Of a stretch of DNA of 28,992 nt, positions 7,310 to 15,461 are shown in pieces. Origin of the DNA: a virus; IMG/VR virus record IMGVR_UViG_3300025705_000014, positions 1 to 28,992 of that record, one strand, 5' to 3'. The translations under genes were made by a program, and so were the position numbers. How positions within the stretch are numbered: the stretch's first letter is position 1; every line of letters begins with the position of its first letter. A model generated the notes under the pieces. It searched no databases. It saw only the letters and a program-made list of their open reading frames with translations, and was not told the origin of the DNA.

Positions 7310-7798
7310 ATGGCACAATTATTAGACCCAACAGAAGTAATGTTTACATCATTCGAACCGAAGATGTCAAACAGATTCATTATGTACATAGAAGGAATTC
7401 CAGCGTACTTAGTGAAAGCCGCCAACAGACCAGAAATAGCAAATGGTAAAGTTACCATAGACCATATTAATGTTAGAAGATATGTAAAAGGTAGAAGTGA
7501 GTGGAGTAGTTTAACTATATCATTATATGACCCGGTAGTTCCATCAGCAGCACAAGCAGCAATGGAATGGGTAAGATTACACCACGAATCAGTAACAGGC
7601 CGTGATGGTTACTCTGATTTCTACAAAAAAGATATCACATTTAACAGTTTGGGTCCTGTAGGTGATAAAGTAGAAGAGTGGACATTAAAAGGAGCATTTA
7701 TTGAAACAGCAAAGTTCTCAGATATGGACTATACTGGTGAAGATATCGCAACTGTAGATTTAACACTAGCATACGATTACGCAATATTACAATACTAA
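7310..7798 (+). CDS. Tail tube protein, gp19-like
   Basis: 162 residues, matching T4 gp19 (163). Recognisable: SNRFIMYIEGIPAYLVKAANRP (first part), VRRYVKGRSEWSSLTISLYDP, 'AAMEWVRLHHES', GRDGYSDFYKKDI and the C-terminal beta strands 'GAFIETAKFSDMDYTGEDI'. These fit the tube beta-sandwich fold shared with type VI Hcp. It stacks as hexamers to make the inner tail tube. A GAGG site lies upstream, with a terminator before and after, giving a single-gene late unit. The sheath-then-tube order is the usual one for T4-type phages. Confidence 0.95.
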   Translation: MAQLLDPTEVMFTSFEPKMSNRFIMYIEGIPAYLVKAANRPEIANGKVTIDHINVRRYVKGRSEWSSLTISLYDPVVPSAAQAAMEWVRLHHESVTGRDGYSDFYKKDITFNSLGPVGDKVEEWTLKGAFIETAKFSDMDYTGEDIATVDLTLAYDYAILQY

Positions 7799-7830
7799 TT
7801 ATCAAATTATACTAAGTATTACAAATTTAG

Positions 7831-7866
7831 AAACCCTTACTATTAATTTAGTAGGGGTTTTTTCGT
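7831..7866 (+). terminator. Intrinsic terminator after tail tube
   Basis: AAACCCTTACTA (7831-7842) pairs with TAGTAGGGGTTT (7849-7860) with one wobble, loop TTAATT, followed by TTTCGTTT. It lies 32 bases after the tube stop. Confidence 0.9.
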
Positions 7867-7893
7867 TTAATTAGTTTAATTAATATTATTTGT

Positions 7894-7902
7894 ATATTTA
7901 TA
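7894..7902 (+). promoter_or_regulatory. Candidate late promoter (TATTTATA) for tail chaperone genes
   Basis: ATATTTATA, 43 bases before the start at 7946, just after the tube terminator. Confidence 0.55.
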
Positions 7903-7945
7903 TAAGGTTAACCAACATTAAATAAGTTTTAAAACGAGAAACGTT

Positions 7946-8830
7946 ATGAGCAAAGAAAAATTACAAGATGATTACAAAAACCCAGTATCCGCAGCGGATA
8001 TGGTTGAGCTCGCTAAACAGCAGTATGAGCAAAAAAAGGTTTCTGATTACAAATTCCCAACAGAAATCGTAGATTTACCATCAAAAGGATTAGTTTATCC
8101 AAAAGATAACGCCCTTTCAAGTGGTAAAGTGGAAATGAAGTATATGACAGCTAAAGAAGAGGATATACTTACTACACAATCTTACATAAAAGATGGTTCA
8201 GTATTAGATAGATTGTTTCAATCATTGATTATATCAAATGGTGATGGAGCTCCTGTAAAATACATAGATATCACATTAGGTGATAAAAACGCAATTATGA
8301 TTGCGGCTAGAATCTTAGGATATGGTAAAGATTATGAAGTAGAGATTGATGACCCAACACAACCAGGTACGATGCAGAAAGAAGTTATTGATTTAACTCA
8401 ATTTGAATCTACAGATTATGATGGTTCAGGTCAAACAGAACTACATAAAAACGAATATGAGTTTGAATTACCACAATCTAAAAGGAAAGTAACCTTTCAA
8501 GCATTAACTGAAAGTAAGGAAAGAAAAATCAAACATCAATTAGAAGCACAAAAGAAAGCATCTAGAAAGTTGAATGATAAGACTGATAAACAACTTACTA
8601 TCAGATTAAAAAATACAATAGTATCAGTAGATGGTGATACAGACCAAACTACAATCAATCACTTCGTAGAAAACGAATTATTTGCGGCCGATTCAAGGGC
8701 TCTCAGAACGCATATAAACAAAGTCGTACCAGATGTTGATTTAACTTATGAATTTATATCTGATGAGACCGGGGAAGGGAGAGATATGCTACTGCCTATG
8801 GGGCTTGGCTTTTTTTGGCCTCAATCTTAG
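7946..8830 (+). CDS. gp26-type baseplate/tail assembly protein (frame 0 product)
   Basis: 294 residues. The N-terminal third, VDLPSKGLVYPKDN, KVEMKYMTAKEEDILTTQSY and IKDGSVLDRLFQSLI, is typical of the 'T4 bacteriophage base plate protein' family that includes T4 gp26. A basic helix (ESKERKIKHQLEAQKKASRK) follows. The end, LPMGLGFFWPQS, carries the family's terminal FFWP. Sitting between tube and tape measure genes, it occupies the place of the upstream tail-assembly chaperone (lambda gpG). The last codons use GGG, CTG and GGC in a cluster unlike the rest of the gene and end in TTTTTTT (8810-8816), a likely slip site into the next ORF. Confidence 0.78.
   Translation: MSKEKLQDDYKNPVSAADMVELAKQQYEQKKVSDYKFPTEIVDLPSKGLVYPKDNALSSGKVEMKYMTAKEEDILTTQSYIKDGSVLDRLFQSLIISNGDGAPVKYIDITLGDKNAIMIAARILGYGKDYEVEIDDPTQPGTMQKEVIDLTQFESTDYDGSGQTELHKNEYEFELPQSKRKVTFQALTESKERKIKHQLEAQKKASRKLNDKTDKQLTIRLKNTIVSVDGDTDQTTINHFVENELFAADSRALRTHINKVVPDVDLTYEFISDETGEGRDMLLPMGLGFFWPQS
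8810..8816 (+). other. Candidate +1 ribosomal frameshift site (T7 run)
   Basis: In frame 0 the codons are TTT-TTT-TGG. A Phe-tRNA on the second TTT can move one base forward onto another TTT (8814-8816) with full re-pairing, putting GGC in the A site and entering the 8817-9023 frame. GGGGCT (8801 on) can pair weakly with GGCCTC (8817 on), leaving the run in a loop. Loss of one T by polymerase slippage would give the same protein. Confidence 0.6.
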
Positions 8831-9023
8831 TTATAGGAAGCATTTACACTCTCACATTTTTGATTTGATATTCCACGGAAATGGTGGATTCAACTTTACT
8901 GATGTTTACAATATGCCTGTTTGGGCAAGAAAATTCTATATAGGTAAAATTGTAGAATTTAGACAAGAAGAACAGAAAGCACATGATAAAGAAATGAAGA
9001 AAGCTAAATCAAGAAGAAGATAA
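8817..9023 (+). CDS. Frameshift extension of the gp26-type protein (second tail assembly chaperone domain)
   Basis: 68 codons in the +1 frame relative to the preceding gene: SYRKHLHSHIFDLIFHGNGG, then VYNMPVWARKFYIGK and a very basic tail ending KKAKSRRR. Although the frame has an ATG at 8748, residues before SYRKH look like a shadow of the upstream gene, and no start codon with a ribosome site lies near the conserved part. So I expect it to be made as a C-terminal extension, giving a fusion of about 358 residues. This is the same layout as lambda G-GT. By position it corresponds to T4 gene 51, which follows 26. If not frameshifted, it would be a separate ORF with an unusual start. Confidence 0.62.
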   Translation, partial: GLNLSYRKHLHSHIFDLIFHGNGGFNFTDVYNMPVWARKFYIGKIVEFRQEEQKAHDKEMKKAKSRRR

Positions 9024-9027
9024 TATT

Positions 9028-9064
9028 AATACCCAATGAATTTTTTGATGATTTGTTGGGTATT
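9028..9064 (+). terminator. Possible terminator hairpin
   Basis: AATACCCAA (9028-9036) and TTGGGTATT (9056-9064) form a perfect 9-bp stem with a 19-base loop, followed by a T-rich stretch that merges into the next promoter motif. The long loop and short T-run make it weaker than the two terminators above. Confidence 0.45.
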
Positions 9065-9105: not shown

Positions 9106-9297
9106 ATGGCCAAAATAACCAAATCAAAACTTACAGAGATGTTGAAATCAAAGGGTCTCTCTGAAGGGTTCTTATCTAACTTTTTTAAGAAAATTAAACT
9201 TGCTAAAGCAGAAAAAGAATACCAACAACTAACAAATGACCCTAGATATCAAGAACTACTTAAAAAATATAATATTAAACCAGTAGACTGGAAATAA
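9106..9297 (+). CDS. Small basic protein of unknown function
   Basis: 63 residues, Lys-rich (predicted pI high) and helical: KITKSKLTEMLKSKGLSEGF, then FFKKIKLAKAEKEYQQL and a tail KYNIKPVDWK. No membrane helix, Cys or signal peptide. GGGA lies about 12 bases before the ATG. It is the first gene after a candidate late promoter and 15 bases before the tape measure gene, so a small assembly partner or minor tail protein is plausible. I do not recognise it. Confidence 0.55.
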   Translation: MAKITKSKLTEMLKSKGLSEGFLSNFFKKIKLAKAEKEYQQLTNDPRYQELLKKYNIKPVDWK

Positions 9298-9312: not shown

Positions 9313-12228
9313 ATGGCTAAGAAAAAAGAAAATATCCAAAAGAAGATAGCTGAAGAGAATGCAAAAAATCTCAAAGCTCTTAGAGCTGAAGAATCACTTC
9401 AGACAAACATATCTGCCATATTGTTAAAGAGAGTCCAAGGACAAAAGAAATTAAATCAAAGCCAAAAGGACTTACTCACCGACATACAAGGTGAAACTGA
9501 TTTAGCAAGTAAACTTACCAAAATACAAGACGCCAAACAAGCAATATTATTAAAACAAGCAAAAACTGGCAAAGATATAGGAAAAGCTCTACTAACCCAA
9601 TTAGATGATTTGGATGAAATTGTTAGACGAGAGGGAAAACGGCAAGAATCAGCAGAACACTATCAAGAACTTCTTGATGACAGAAAGAAAACTCTTCAAA
9701 ACATATTAGGGATAGATGATGATATAACTGCGGCAGTAGCTAAGGGTGGTGTAGCCGCTCTTGCTATGAATAAAGCATTTGAAAATGTTGGAGCATCACT
9801 AACCGCTCATGTAGATACATTGAGAGATATGGTTACTCAACAGGGGCTAAGTGGTGGAGAAGCCGTAATACTTAAAGGTAATATCGATGCAGCATCATTT
9901 AGTTTAACTGGAATGATGTATGGTTCAGAAGCATTAGCATCATCTGCATCAGCAATCGCTGAAAAGTTTGGTAATGTAAACGCAGCAACATCAGATATGA
10001 TAAAGGGTGTTACTGAAGTAGCATCACTTACAGGAGATGCAGCATCGGCAACTGATTTAGTAAGTACCTTCCAAAATGCAGGAATGGAAGCTGGTGAAGT
10101 TGGTGACCATATAAAAGAATTAGCAGAAAAGCATGGTGTAAACGCCAAAAAGATGATGGAAGGTATGGGTTCTCAGATGTCTAAGCTGAGAGGTAAAACT
10201 CAAGAACAACTGGATGTTATATTAGAAGGTAACGCAGCTTTAATTAAGCAGGGTACTAATATGGAAGAAATTCAAAACATAGCAAATAATGTTTTGGATA
10301 TCGAAGGTAATATGAAAGCAGCTGCTAAAGCTAGAGTGATGTTAGGTAGAGATGTTAATGCTAACGCTGTAAGAAGTGCCGCATTATCTCTGGAATCTGC
10401 TCGTACTGATGAAGAAAGAATAGCAGCTCAAGAAAGATTATCTGCAGAAATATTAAAAGGTGTGGGTGGACAAGAAGAGTTCGCTCAAATGACTGAAAAA
10501 GAAAAAGCAGCAACCGCAGCCGCAATGGGAATGGATAAAGAACAATTATCCGTTATGATGGACAAAAAAAGAGTTCAAGACGAACTTACAGAAAAATATG
10601 GAGCCGCAGCACCAGCAATTGAGATGTTAAAAGGTGGATTCTTTTCAGCTGTTAAAGGAGCTGGTAGTTTACTTATGGAGATGGGTAAGGTTATAGCGAA
10701 AACAACTATAATGAACCTAATGATGAATGGAAAGACTGGTCTAGGTGGTATGTTCACAGGAGCAGCTAACTCAGCAAAAGATTTAGGTAGTAAAATAAAA
10801 GGTGTTTTCTCAAAAGGTGGTGGTGGGGCTAAACCTGATTTGCCAGGTTTAGATAAAACACAGGATATGGGACCTAAAGTAGATAAAGGTGGTTCTAAAA
10901 GTGGTGGTGGGTTAAAATCATTAGCCGATGGTTTAAAAGAGATGGGTGATTCTAAAGTATTCGCAGGTATAGGTGCAGTTGCATTGGCAGGACCTGCATT
11001 TATAATAGCACTTCCATCAATTCCATTCTTATTATTTATGGGATTAACTCCATTAAAACAATTAGAAACTAACTTTAGTGGATTAGCAACAGGTCTTAAT
11101 AGTATGGCATCCACATTTATGGGTTCATTGGCTGTAGCCGCATTCGGAATCGCAGCAATTCCATCTATACTATCAATTCCATTCTTATTATTTATGGGAT
11201 TAACACCATTAGCACAATTAGGACCTAATTTCACATCATTATCAGTAGGATTGACCGCTATGGCATCCTCATTTATGGGTTCACTCGCATTAGGAGCATT
11301 CGCATTAGCAGCTGGGTTAGCAATAGCATCTATTCCATTCTTAATCGCTATATCATTATTAGGAATACCAGCATCAGCTGGATTAGGTGCATTAGGTGTT
11401 GGATTAACTGCGTTAGGAACGGCAGCCGCTAGTGGATTACCATTCTTAGGAATCGCATTAATAGGGGCATTAGGATTGGCTATGATTCCATTCGCAATCG
11501 CATTAAATATAGCAACACCAGCAATTGAAGCATTTGGTGGTGTAATAGTTGGGGTAATGGGAGCAATCCCACCAATCATTAGTGCAATAGCAGATGGGTT
11601 CGTAACTATGATGGGTGCATTATCTTTAGAAAATATTGGAGCATTAATGTTATTAGGACCGGCATTGATGTTAGCATCAGTTGGTATGGTTGCATTTGGA
11701 ATTTCAATGGCAGTTGCATCAGCAGCATCATTCTTTGGTGGTGGTATTATAGATGATATAAGTGAATTAGCTATGATAGGACCTCAATTAGAACAAGCAG
11801 GTAGTGGGTTAGCATCAATTACACAAAATTTAGGTGAAGTAAGTGGTGTAATAGCAACATTATCAGAATCATTAAGTACAATGGGTTCAGTAACAACACC
11901 ATTATATGGAGTTGCAGGTGGATTAATGAGTATAGCGGGTGGTTTAGTAACTATGGCTGGTGCTGGATTGTTAGCACTACCAATATTTGCAGCAATAGGT
12001 GGTTTAGCAGCTATCGCTCCTGTATTAGATGGATTAGGTTCGTTATTTGGTGGTGGTGGTGAATCCGAATCCACATCAGATAGTGGTGGTTCTGATATGA
12101 TAGATTACGAAAGATTAGCATCAGTTTTACAATCACAACCAATAGTATTATCAATAGATGGTAAGGCAGTACAAAAGATAACGGCAGTACAACGTAGACA
12201 AGGTAAAAACGCAAGGGGATTTAGCTAA
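9313..12228 (+). CDS. Tail tape measure protein
   Basis: 971 residues. The N-terminal ~150 residues are charged coiled coil; the middle is Ala/Gly-rich helix; residues ~430-530 are Gly-rich linker; residues ~545-910 are long hydrophobic helices (AAFGIAAIPSILSIPFLLF and relatives); the C-terminus (YERLASVLQSQPIVLSIDGK, then AVQKITAVQRRQG) has the usual tape-measure end. Such proteins fill the tube, set tail length and may insert into the host membrane during DNA entry. It has two clear 52-residue tandem repeats. The stop overlaps the next ATG (TAATG). No lytic domain was seen. Confidence 0.9.
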   Translation: MAKKKENIQKKIAEENAKNLKALRAEESLQTNISAILLKRVQGQKKLNQSQKDLLTDIQGETDLASKLTKIQDAKQAILLKQAKTGKDIGKALLTQLDDLDEIVRREGKRQESAEHYQELLDDRKKTLQNILGIDDDITAAVAKGGVAALAMNKAFENVGASLTAHVDTLRDMVTQQGLSGGEAVILKGNIDAASFSLTGMMYGSEALASSASAIAEKFGNVNAATSDMIKGVTEVASLTGDAASATDLVSTFQNAGMEAGEVGDHIKELAEKHGVNAKKMMEGMGSQMSKLRGKTQEQLDVILEGNAALIKQGTNMEEIQNIANNVLDIEGNMKAAAKARVMLGRDVNANAVRSAALSLESARTDEERIAAQERLSAEILKGVGGQEEFAQMTEKEKAATAAAMGMDKEQLSVMMDKKRVQDELTEKYGAAAPAIEMLKGGFFSAVKGAGSLLMEMGKVIAKTTIMNLMMNGKTGLGGMFTGAANSAKDLGSKIKGVFSKGGGGAKPDLPGLDKTQDMGPKVDKGGSKSGGGLKSLADGLKEMGDSKVFAGIGAVALAGPAFIIALPSIPFLLFMGLTPLKQLETNFSGLATGLNSMASTFMGSLAVAAFGIAAIPSILSIPFLLFMGLTPLAQLGPNFTSLSVGLTAMASSFMGSLALGAFALAAGLAIASIPFLIAISLLGIPASAGLGALGVGLTALGTAAASGLPFLGIALIGALGLAMIPFAIALNIATPAIEAFGGVIVGVMGAIPPIISAIADGFVTMMGALSLENIGALMLLGPALMLASVGMVAFGISMAVASAASFFGGGIIDDISELAMIGPQLEQAGSGLASITQNLGEVSGVIATLSESLSTMGSVTTPLYGVAGGLMSIAGGLVTMAGAGLLALPIFAAIGGLAAIAPVLDGLGSLFGGGGESESTSDSGGSDMIDYERLASVLQSQPIVLSIDGKAVQKITAVQRRQGKNARGFS
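11017..11328 (+). repeat. Two tandem 156-bp (52-residue) membrane-helix repeats in the tape measure gene
   Basis: Copies begin at 11017 and 11173, each opening SIPFLLFMGLTPL and continuing with QL--NF--L--GL--MAS-FMGSLA. A third, decayed copy opens SIPFLIA at 11329. Each unit has two hydrophobic stretches split by a polar segment. Confidence 0.85.
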
Positions 12229-15200
12229 TGGCACTTAAAGATATGAAATCAGATTTATCAAAGTTTAGAGTTCCTAAAACAACACCTTTGGATTCTAAAC
12301 CAACAGTTGAGGTTAATAAAAACTTAAACAAAACACCTCTTAGTGGGTTAGTAAAATCTGCTCCTGTAAAAGCAACGATTTCACCAACAGAAAAATCTGG
12401 AGTAAATCCTCAAAAGATAAATCAAACTGAAAAGTTTAAAGGTGAAACTACTCCTAAGCCAATGGATAACTCAGAAAAGTTTAAGGGTGAAACTACTCCT
12501 AAGCCAATGAGTTTAGAAGAACGATATTTAGGACAAACCGACCCTAAGTTGGTAAATCAAACTGAAAAGTTTAAAGGTGAAACAAATCCTAAAGAAATGG
12601 ATAACTCATCTAAATTCTTAGGTGAAACAAATCCTACTGAATCTGATAAGAGCTCTAAGTTCATAGGTGAGACAACACCAAAAGAAGCAAATAATCAATC
12701 ACAATTCTTAGGTGAGACAACACCAAAGGAAATGGATAACAAAACTAAATTCTTAGGTGAAACAACTCCTAAAGAGGCAAATAACCAATCAAAATTCTTA
12801 GGTGAAACTACTCCTAAAGAAGCAAATAATAAAACTCAGTTCTTAGGTGAAACTACTCCTAAAGAAGCTGATAAGAGTTCTAAGTTTTTAGGTGAGACAA
12901 CACCAAAAGAAGCAAATAATAAAACTCAGTTCTTAGGAGAAACTACTCCAAAGGAATCTGATAAGAGTTCTAAGTTCTTAGGTGAAACATCACCAAAACC
13001 AATGAGTTTAGAAGAAAGATATTTAGGACAGACAACACCTAATGAATCTGATAAGAGTTCTAAATTCTTAGGAGAAACTACTCCAACCGAATCCGATAGG
13101 AGTTCTAAGTTCTTAGGAGAAACTACTCCAAAGGAATCTGATAAAAGCTCTAAGTTTTTGGGTGAAACTACTCCACTATCATCAGATAGGAGTTCTAAGT
13201 TCTTAGGTGAAACATCACCAACTCCAATGAATATTCCAAATGGTGAAAGGGGTTTAGGTGAAACAACACCAACTGATTTTTCATTTAAAAAGAAATTGGA
13301 AAGTGAAGGAAAAGATTTTAAAGAAGTAAACAATCTTTCAGATATTCACTCAACTGGATTTAATTCTAAATTTGGTGGAGTAGAGGCAACTAGATTTGTG
13401 GGTGTAAATCCTAACAATACTGTATTTGATGGGGCTAGTTCATTATTTTCTAATACATCTGATAATACCTTTACTTTAGGTAAAACTTATGGTAAATCAT
13501 TCAATGATGCCGGTGGTATGAATTCAGGAGAAGAAGGATTTGGAATTGGTAAGGGGCAAGCTAAGCGTAAATCTCCATCATTCTTAGATGAGCAATATAA
13601 TAAGTTTAATTTAAGAGATGATGCATTCAATTTAGGAACATCCGCATTTGCACATCCATTAATCCTAAGAGGTATTCAAAGAAAAGGATTAACCAAAGGT
13701 GAACCACAAAAGTGGGGATTTGGATTTCCTATAGATGATGGTTTAGTTAGGGGTGGTATCGTAACCGCAGTTGATAGAGCAGTTGTTGATGTAGTGCGTT
13801 TAGGTAAGTGGATGATTTCAGTAAAAGGTTTATTGTGGGGTGTAAAGAACTTAGGTTTACAAGCATCCAACCCTAATGTAGAAACCATTACTGGAAAACG
13901 ATTAACGAAGGTTTGGACTCCTATAAATACAATCGCTTCAACACTTGGTGGGTTTGCAGGATTACACCCACGCAGACATGGTATATTACCATTACCAGAA
14001 GCTGCTAATCCTGAAAAATATGAAACTGTACAAAAGGTTAAAAAAGTAGCTCAAGTAGATGATATAACATTAGGTATTGCGGGTACGGGTAATAGATTAG
14101 TTGGATTATACAATGAATCATTCCTTACAATTGGTGGTACAACAACATCTTCTACTTTTAAAGGTGCACCATTTTTAAGATTGCAAGGATTGGGTGGACC
14201 AAACTCCCTTTATGGTTTAATTCCAGGTGGTAGAGTTCCACATAGAGATGAAGATACTAGATTTGATGTATTCGATGGATTCACTATTCAAAATCAATAT
14301 AGTGTAGTAGGAACAGACCCTTCAACGGGGCCAACAGCAGCTCAAAATCTAAACTTTTTACCATTTGATAGAGATAAAACACCATTAGGAAAAGAAGTAA
14401 AACCATATACTGAATTTAATAAGTATCCTGATAGAGAACCAACTTCAGACCCTAACGATACTACTAATAAAAAAGCTGGTATAACTCACAATGATGAGTT
14501 TACATATGGTGAAAATAGAAGTTCAGACTTAGAAGGTAGTGATTACGAAGGTACTGATTTAGGTCTTGCATGGGAATCGTATTCAACTGAGGGTAGACCA
14601 TCTGATGGGGCATTGAATAGAGGTGTTACACACACCTCAAAGGAAAATCCATTCGAAAAAGTAAAAAATACAAATGGAACATCTCATAATATAGAAGTAT
14701 TAACATCATCAGAACTTATCAAAGGATATGAAACTATAGCATATGGAAATATGCCTGATAGAGTAGCTAATGATATTGAAGTAACTGATTTTAGAAGTTT
14801 GTTAACAGGTGATGAATCCAAAAGAGCTACAAAAGCTGCATACACCGATAAATCACTACAAACTAGGTTTAAATTTACAAATCCTGGTAAAGTTGGAGCA
14901 GATAGAACAGATTATACTACATCTCATGCCGCTGACCCAATTCAAACATCGGGTATAAACGCAGCAGAGCAGGATGATTTAGTTAAACTAATATTTGATA
15001 AACATGGTGGTGGTTCTAAATTACAATTCAGAGCAACTGTTACTGGTATAACAGAAACATTCTCACCATCTTGGGATGGGATGAAATATAATGGTAGAGC
15101 TGACCAGGCGTTTAAATACGGAACATTTGAAAGAAGTATGAGTTTTAACTTCAAAGTATATCCAACATCTAAAGCGGAACTAATCCCATTGTATAAAAAA

Positions 15201-15461
15201 TTAGAAAGATTATCCACAATGACAATGCCTAACTATGGTACAAATGGATATGAGGGTATTCTGTTAGATTTTACTTTAGGTAAATTATGGGTAAACCAAT
15301 TATCATTCATAGATTCGTTATCATACTCATTTTCAGATGATGTACCTTGGGATATTGATGAACAGGCATCTATGGGTATAGATGTATCAATAGGATTAAA
15401 ATTATTAATGAACGAATTACCAAAATACCAATCAACTGTTTATAATTTAGATGGGATGTAA
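12228..15461 (+). CDS. Large baseplate / tail-tube-initiator-like protein with 15-residue repeats
   Basis: 1077 residues, start overlapping the tape measure stop. Residues 1-68 are basic and disordered. Residues 69-353 are about 19 tandem 15-residue units of the form KFLGETTPKEADKSS. Residues ~425-560 contain a WMISVKGLLWGVKNLGLQ helix and PRRHG. The last ~150 residues, KLQFRATVTGITETFSPSWD, 'YGTFERSMSFNFKVYP' and WVNQLSFIDSLSYSFSDDVPW, resemble a beta-rich baseplate domain. In T4, genes 48 and 54, which start the tube on the baseplate, follow the tape measure gene 29. By position and C-terminal type I infer a similar role, with low certainty on the exact equivalent. The repeat array is unusual. 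Confidence 0.65.
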   Translation: MALKDMKSDLSKFRVPKTTPLDSKPTVEVNKNLNKTPLSGLVKSAPVKATISPTEKSGVNPQKINQTEKFKGETTPKPMDNSEKFKGETTPKPMSLEERYLGQTDPKLVNQTEKFKGETNPKEMDNSSKFLGETNPTESDKSSKFIGETTPKEANNQSQFLGETTPKEMDNKTKFLGETTPKEANNQSKFLGETTPKEANNKTQFLGETTPKEADKSSKFLGETTPKEANNKTQFLGETTPKESDKSSKFLGETSPKPMSLEERYLGQTTPNESDKSSKFLGETTPTESDRSSKFLGETTPKESDKSSKFLGETTPLSSDRSSKFLGETSPTPMNIPNGERGLGETTPTDFSFKKKLESEGKDFKEVNNLSDIHSTGFNSKFGGVEATRFVGVNPNNTVFDGASSLFSNTSDNTFTLGKTYGKSFNDAGGMNSGEEGFGIGKGQAKRKSPSFLDEQYNKFNLRDDAFNLGTSAFAHPLILRGIQRKGLTKGEPQKWGFGFPIDDGLVRGGIVTAVDRAVVDVVRLGKWMISVKGLLWGVKNLGLQASNPNVETITGKRLTKVWTPINTIASTLGGFAGLHPRRHGILPLPEAANPEKYETVQKVKKVAQVDDITLGIAGTGNRLVGLYNESFLTIGGTTTSSTFKGAPFLRLQGLGGPNSLYGLIPGGRVPHRDEDTRFDVFDGFTIQNQYSVVGTDPSTGPTAAQNLNFLPFDRDKTPLGKEVKPYTEFNKYPDREPTSDPNDTTNKKAGITHNDEFTYGENRSSDLEGSDYEGTDLGLAWESYSTEGRPSDGALNRGVTHTSKENPFEKVKNTNGTSHNIEVLTSSELIKGYETIAYGNMPDRVANDIEVTDFRSLLTGDESKRATKAAYTDKSLQTRFKFTNPGKVGADRTDYTTSHAADPIQTSGINAAEQDDLVKLIFDKHGGGSKLQFRATVTGITETFSPSWDGMKYNGRADQAFKYGTFERSMSFNFKVYPTSKAELIPLYKKLERLSTMTMPNYGTNGYEGILLDFTLGKLWVNQLSFIDSLSYSFSDDVPWDIDEQASMGIDVSIGLKLLMNELPKYQSTVYNLDGM
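12432..13286 (+). repeat. About 19 tandem 45-bp (15-residue) repeats
   Basis: Units share F-x-G-E-T-T-P followed by a variable linker such as KEADKSSK or KEANNKTQ. Units 2-3 and 13-14 both carry the variant PMSLEERYLGQT, exactly 495 bp apart, so an 11-unit block seems to have been duplicated. Units differ mostly at synonymous positions (GGTGAAACT, GGTGAGACA, GGAGAAACT), so the protein motif is being kept. Confidence 0.92.

Follow-up and report, generated by a model that had tools for sequence, protein, structure and literature searches.

Examination of the tail region of IMG/VR virus record IMGVR_UViG_3300025705_000014 raised the question of whether two overlapping open reading frames, here named ORF1 and ORF2, are expressed as one gene by means of a programmed ribosomal frameshift. 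The stretch of DNA analyzed in this study, referred to as the window, is a 28,992-nt fragment of an incomplete genome and harbors a T4-like tail module comprising genes for the sheath and the tail tube, ORF1, ORF2, a 63-aa ORF, and a long probable tape measure gene (Table 1). A sequence-only reading of the window had pointed out that ORF1 ends with FFWPQS directly after a run of seven T residues and that ORF2 continues in the +1 frame; the coordinates of all three were confirmed, the 3' end of ORF1 being GGC TTT TTT TGG CCT CAA TCT TAG. Our analysis indicates that ORF1 and ORF2 very probably constitute a single chaperone gene of the T4 gp26/gp51 type, from which a programmed +1 slip would yield a short tail assembly chaperone (TAC-N) plus a fusion protein (TAC-NC).

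Table 1. Features of the ORF1-ORF2 locus and its neighborhood (window positions)
Feature	Position	Strand	Basis or remark
Tail tube gene	7310..7798	+	phrog_4542, E 5.1e-23
Terminator-like hairpin before ORF1	7829..7862	+	
Candidate late promoter motif TATATTTATATA	7893..7904	+	Upstream of ORF1; none upstream of ORF2
ORF1, short chaperone TAC-N, T4 gp26-type, 294 aa	7946..8830	+	phrog_150; PF12322 in relatives; AF2 model
TAC-N/TAC-C fusion (predicted), 358 aa	7946-9023	+	+1 frame join of ORF1 and ORF2
Base before T run	8809..8809	+	Never T in relatives; interpreted as guard against -1 slip
+1 slip site (proposed) TTT TTT TGG CCT	8810..8821	+	T7 at 8810-8816; identical in 150/163 loci; per-column conservation
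ORF2, chaperone C-terminal part TAC-C, T4 gp51 C-terminal extension type	8814..9023	+	+1 frame, open to 9023; phrog_634
ORF1 stop codon TAG	8828..8830	+	18 nt past slip-site start; 15-24 nt in representatives
Terminator-like hairpin directly after ORF2	9028..9064	+	Closes ORF1-ORF2 unit
Probable tape measure gene, 971 aa	9313..12228	+	Position and length

Since the two hairpins bracket the pair and no TATATTTATATA motif precedes ORF2, ORF2 appears to be part of the unit of ORF1. The motif, a candidate for the late promoter of this phage group, was found eight times in the window when up to one mismatch was allowed, always on the plus strand, versus 1.43 matches expected; it precedes ORF1 and the gene after ORF2, but not ORF2 itself. 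Matches start at positions 1833, 4380, 7270, 7893, 9067, 18970, 23295, and 28247, mostly 10 to 50 nt upstream of gene starts. The 63-aa ORF (positions 9106-9297) between ORF2 and the tape measure gene has its own promoter-like motif and was assigned to no family in a profile search. The tape measure candidate likewise gave no profile match; the genes at the equivalent position in immuto and SP-15 are annotated as tail tape measure. Further downstream, in a 1,077-aa ORF (positions 12228-15461) for a tail or baseplate-region protein, a 45-bp (15-aa) unit, KFLGETTPKEA..., is repeated in tandem about 14 times at positions 12575-13221.

ORF1 is of the T4 gp26 type and probably encodes a tail assembly chaperone. 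Its protein matched phrog_150 ("baseplate hub") with an E value of 7.9e-7; phrog_150 was also matched by 22 of 24 fusion rows of its relatives, and PF12322 (T4_baseplate) was matched by 27 of the 40 aligned TAC-N relatives (best value, 3.7e-14) and not by the window protein itself. Structures were predicted with AF2 for TAC-N and TAC-C separately. The ORF1 model (pLDDT 86.6, pTM 0.80) matched predicted structures of baseplate hub proteins from SP-15, VH7D, and others, and its best match among solved structures was the HK97 tail assembly chaperone 2ob9, with a modest Z score of 4.8 over 81 residues at 3.7 Å; the next unrelated row scored Z 3.4. A Foldseek search of the model against the PDB gave no significant match (E 2.0), and a sequence search of solved structures with the fusion profile gave none. 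The kinship with gp26 and gp51 is drawn from PHROG and Pfam profiles, pairwise profile comparisons with the single T4 gp26 and gp51 sequences being uninformative.

The ORF2 product weakly matched phrog_634 ("baseplate hub assembly catalyst"; E 0.0068), and so did 15 of 38 TAC-C relatives, all weakly; this kinship is supported also by position and by the architecture of T4 gp51. The earlier assignment of the two ORFs to a gp26/gp51-type chaperone pair agrees with these profile matches. Past the ORF1 stop, the median pN/pS is 0.21 in the ORF2 frame versus 1.31 and 1.39 in the other frames, a substitution pattern indicating that ORF2 evolves as a protein. The AF2 model of TAC-C (pLDDT 86) consists of a helix, a short helix, and a long helix. 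PF20546 (DUF6760) was weakly matched by 6 of the 38 TAC-C rows (best value, 0.0014) and Phage_tail_T by one (0.051), matches that possibly link TAC-C to lambda T and other tail-like systems.

Conservation of the frame relation was assessed in two rounds. In all 80 IMG/VR loci of the first round (70 to 100% identity), ORF2 follows in the +1 frame and the junction carries TTTTTTTGGCC; every relative regains homology at the residue directly behind the slip. Another 80 loci, down to 44% identity, came from a profile search, and scoring of the ORF2 profile in both alternative frames placed it in +1 in 165 of 166 loci and in -1 in one. A second profile search again gave mostly +1 loci with the same sites; in the four loci flagged there as -1, neither frame is closed and the +1 site is retained. 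The frame relation and the near-invariant site, which far exceed what chance would give, support the +1 frameshift proposed in the sequence-only reading, with the fusion protein as its predicted product. That reading had also named an error in the length of the T run as a possible refutation, in which case one continuous gene would merely appear split. Homopolymer runs are indeed error-prone, but 123 distinct sequences of 500 nt, drawn from many metagenomes, share the run length and frame. Two cultured phages, Mel-JY01 and immuto, show the same frame, the run of immuto being interrupted, so the chance that an error explains the locus is negligible.

The site itself was counted in 163 loci, which were reduced to 80 representatives with less than 85% nucleotide identity. 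TTT TTT TGG CCT occurs in 150 loci, TTT TTT TAC CCT in seven, TTT CTT TGG CCT in three, and TTT TTT TGG CCA, TTT CTT TAC CCT, and TTT CTA TTC CCT in one each, so that the pattern TTT YTT T(GG/AC) CC fits 162 of the 163. The interrupted run of immuto is of the CTT TGG type, while SP-15, GXN1, and about 25 related loci carry TTY TTT CGT or close variants. The first Phe codon of the site is TTT in all 80 representatives, versus 585 of 757 Phe codons elsewhere in ORF1 (TTC, 23%). Furthermore, the base before the run is C in 46 representatives, G in 32, A in two, and T in none, whereas own-codon usage predicts T in 38.6 (probability of no T, 7.6e-27). Since an eighth T would create the -1 slippery site U_UUU_UUU, we interpret its avoidance as a block to -1 slippage that would hold the shift in the forward direction. 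The codon before the slip site is variable, and GGG is found there in only 15 of 80 representatives; the A-site codon is UGG or UAC. The suggestion of atypical codons at the site was partly right, the base before the run being C or G in 78 of 80 and never T.

A weak stem around the T run, also suggested earlier, was not borne out, as no significant RNA structure was detected at the window site (z of about -0.1). Among 40 representatives, no consistent structure was found before or after the site, with mean z values of -0.5 to -1.1 that resemble those of flanking controls. Neither a stop codon nor a consistent Shine-Dalgarno-like element was found at the site as a stimulator, and no Rfam match or tRNA was found.

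The claim that ORF2 has no credible start is borne out by relatives only, the ORF2 frame of the window containing two ATG codons (8748 and 8763) and a TTG (8805); no Shine-Dalgarno-like sequence was seen at the usual spacing before either ATG. The alignment of homologous loci proposed in the sequence-only reading showed the +1 relation kept in 165 of 166 scored loci. In 28 of 79 representatives, the ORF2 frame is devoid of ATG, GTG, and TTG between its preceding in-frame stop and a point 51 nt past the site. Moreover, an ORF2-frame stop lies at most three codons upstream of the slip in 56 of 163 loci.

In the proposed mechanism, the majority of ribosomes would terminate at the ORF1 stop and release TAC-N. 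On the others, the P-site tRNA-Phe would slip from the second UUU to the overlapping UUU (+1) with UGG or UAC as the waiting A-site codon, and these ribosomes would read on through ORF2 to produce TAC-NC, with the predicted transframe peptide DMLLPMGLGFFGLNLSYR in the window. We infer that the slip takes place, at what rate, and that it goes +1 and not -2. In all variants, re-pairing of the P-site codon at +1 stays possible, either UUU to UUU, CUU to UUU, or, in the UUU_CGU group, UUU to UUC. The site appears to follow a UUU_C-type pattern, in which a P-site UUU able to re-pair at +1 is combined with a restricted A-site codon (UUU_UGG or UUU_UAC here, UUU_CGU in relatives). At prfB, CUU and UUU rank with the codons most prone to +1 shifts (PMC10885494), and in influenza A PA-X, a +1 shift at UUU_CGU has been proven (PMC3498833). 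The invariant first UUU may be explained by the finding that weak E-site duplexes favor +1 shifts (PMC3498833).

Among the alternatives, a -2 ribosomal shift at the T7 run would reach the same reading frame with one extra Phe (GFFFGLNLSYR; predicted peptide DMLLPMGLGFFFGLNLSYR). The Mu chaperone uses -2 (PMC3498833), and an A-site tRNA could re-pair at -2 within the run. We nevertheless regard this direction as improbable, because the bases before the run, with which the P-site UUU would need to pair anew, are C or G and variable, and because the CTT variants and the UUU_CGU and UUU_CAC groups fit a +1 P-site slip better.

Slippage of the RNA polymerase on the T7 run, giving a share of mRNAs one U shorter, appears less probable still. 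A 7-T homopolymer is present in most members, but it is never lengthened to 8 (0/80), which is the opposite of what such slippage would predict, and the interrupted runs TTT CTT TGG, TTT CTT TAC, TTC TTT TAC, and TTY TTT CGT keep the +1 relation, which argues against it. That ORF2 is a separate gene, translated from ATG 8748 or 8763 or by reinitiation after the ORF1 stop, is very unlikely: although the window offers upstream ATGs and the Mel-JY01 annotation lists ORF2 as its own CDS, many relatives lack a start codon or carry a close upstream stop, and the invariant slip site would be left unexplained.

The programmed +1 slip has counterparts in several known systems. As in lambda gpG/gpGT, an overlapping chaperone pair in different frames lies between the tail tube and tape measure genes and is predicted to give a short and a long form, with a conserved slip site near the ORF1 end and an ORF2 that has no start of its own in many relatives. 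In contrast, lambda shifts -1 on GGGAAAG (PMC5009743), and in the window ORF2 and the tape measure gene are separated by a 63-aa gene. No sequence kinship of the window chaperone to lambda G was detected. The chaperone function of ORF1 and ORF2 is assigned by analogy: as proposed for gpG and gpGT, TAC-N would coat the tape measure protein and TAC-NC would recruit tail tube subunits. Closer in mechanism are the UUU_CGN +1 sites of influenza A PA-X (PMC3498833) and of the HF1-group halovirus chaperone, for which TTT-CGC was proposed (PMC7230728); they share the slip of tRNA-Phe on a P-site UUU with no need for RNA structure, and the exact UUU_CGU is present in the SP-15/GXN1-type relatives, whereas the window has UUU_UGG and a UUU also in the E site. 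The prfB (release factor 2) site CUU_UGA similarly has a P-site NUU followed by U, matched by the CTT TGG variants in immuto and others, but the window has a sense codon in the A site instead of a stop and no consistent Shine-Dalgarno-like element. A +1 shift in a chaperone gene probably has precedent in the HSTV-2 and HF1 chaperones; the former was described as probable +1, and that of Mu as -2 (PMC5009743).

We also compared the locus with the wider T4-related family. In T4, phrog_150 and PF12322 are matched by gp26 as well as gp51, and the phrog_634 extension is found only in gp51; by these profiles, gp51 is a paralogue of gp26 that is extended at its C terminus. T4 would therefore have a duplicated, already fused version, and ORF2 would correspond to the extension, in line with the earlier suggestion that the T4 genes are a split form of the pair. 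Like gp26, ORF1 belongs to phrog_150, and ORF2 matches the family specific to the gp51 C terminus; unlike the separate paralogous genes 26 and 51, which lie on opposite strands, the window has one gene with a +1 site, and no second gp26 copy was seen within the 29-kb window, where ORF1 is single and ORF2 out of frame. Cyanophages and relatives (81 loci) and KVP40-type phages (two) also have TAC-N followed by an out-of-frame TAC-C at the same Phe-Phe, but in the -1 frame behind NNT TTT TTC, which by its letters is a canonical -1 heptamer. T TTT TTC is present in 83 of 83, so that the base before TTT is always T, the reverse of the window clade. Atu_ph07 has the same -1 arrangement, and the sole non-+1 locus among the 166, L086 (LR756511, a 595-kb jumbo phage), has TAC-C in -1 with GGT TTT TTC TTC upstream, GGT TTT TTC being a probable -1 site.

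A tree built from 79 TAC-N sequences unites the +1 rows of the window type in a single group (100/100); a 100/96 branch separates these and the UUU_CGU-type +1 rows from the cyanophage-type -1 rows and T4. Atu_ph07 and L086, both -1, fall on the +1 side on long branches, and the placement of T4 is likewise uncertain. On balance, we favor a scenario in which one chaperone family has arrived at three solutions: a large radiation of T4-related myophages (Bacteroidota-type, Mel-JY01, SP-15-like) would use +1 at a stop-free, structure-free UUU_YUU_U(GG/AC)_CC or UUU_CGU, the cyanophage/KVP40 branch would use -1, and the T4 branch would have swapped recoding for gene duplication. With these three states in one family, the loss or change of recoding can be traced on a single tree.

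T4 26 and 51 were reportedly identified as tail assembly chaperones by Vladimirov, Gautam, and Davidson in 2022, who are said to have argued for a mechanism other than frameshifting. Papers citing that study describe T4-like chaperones as a short gene plus a longer fusion gene (PMC10885494) and poly-T signals for a -1 shift within the TAC-N genes of such phages (PMC12846349); the chaperone identity of T4 26/51 is already published, and the -1 signals appear to be known. Atkins et al. (2016) had described the G-T type shift as widely conserved "except T4" (PMC5009743). In the literature covered, which includes the 2022 study by way of papers citing it, we found no description of a +1 lineage in T4-type chaperones. 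Sullivan et al. (2010) reported that gp51 of cyanophages and a marine vibriophage lacks the first ~200 residues (PMC3037559), which is explained by the frameshift.

Furthermore, the site represents a naturally replicated test of what a bacterial +1 shift needs, namely, UUU in both the E and the P site, an A-site codon that is CGU or starts with U, and no eighth T, with no obvious stem or stop. The findings also call for a correction of annotations, since ORF2 is listed as a truncated hypothetical protein or is missing in many public genomes. Those of immuto and SP-15 list only the TAC-C end, which is in the +1 frame and called a hypothetical protein; that of LIS04 has no TAC-C annotation. The loci concerned, where the frameshift is missed, are L083 6839-6949, L092 3321-3440, and L093 3230-3459.
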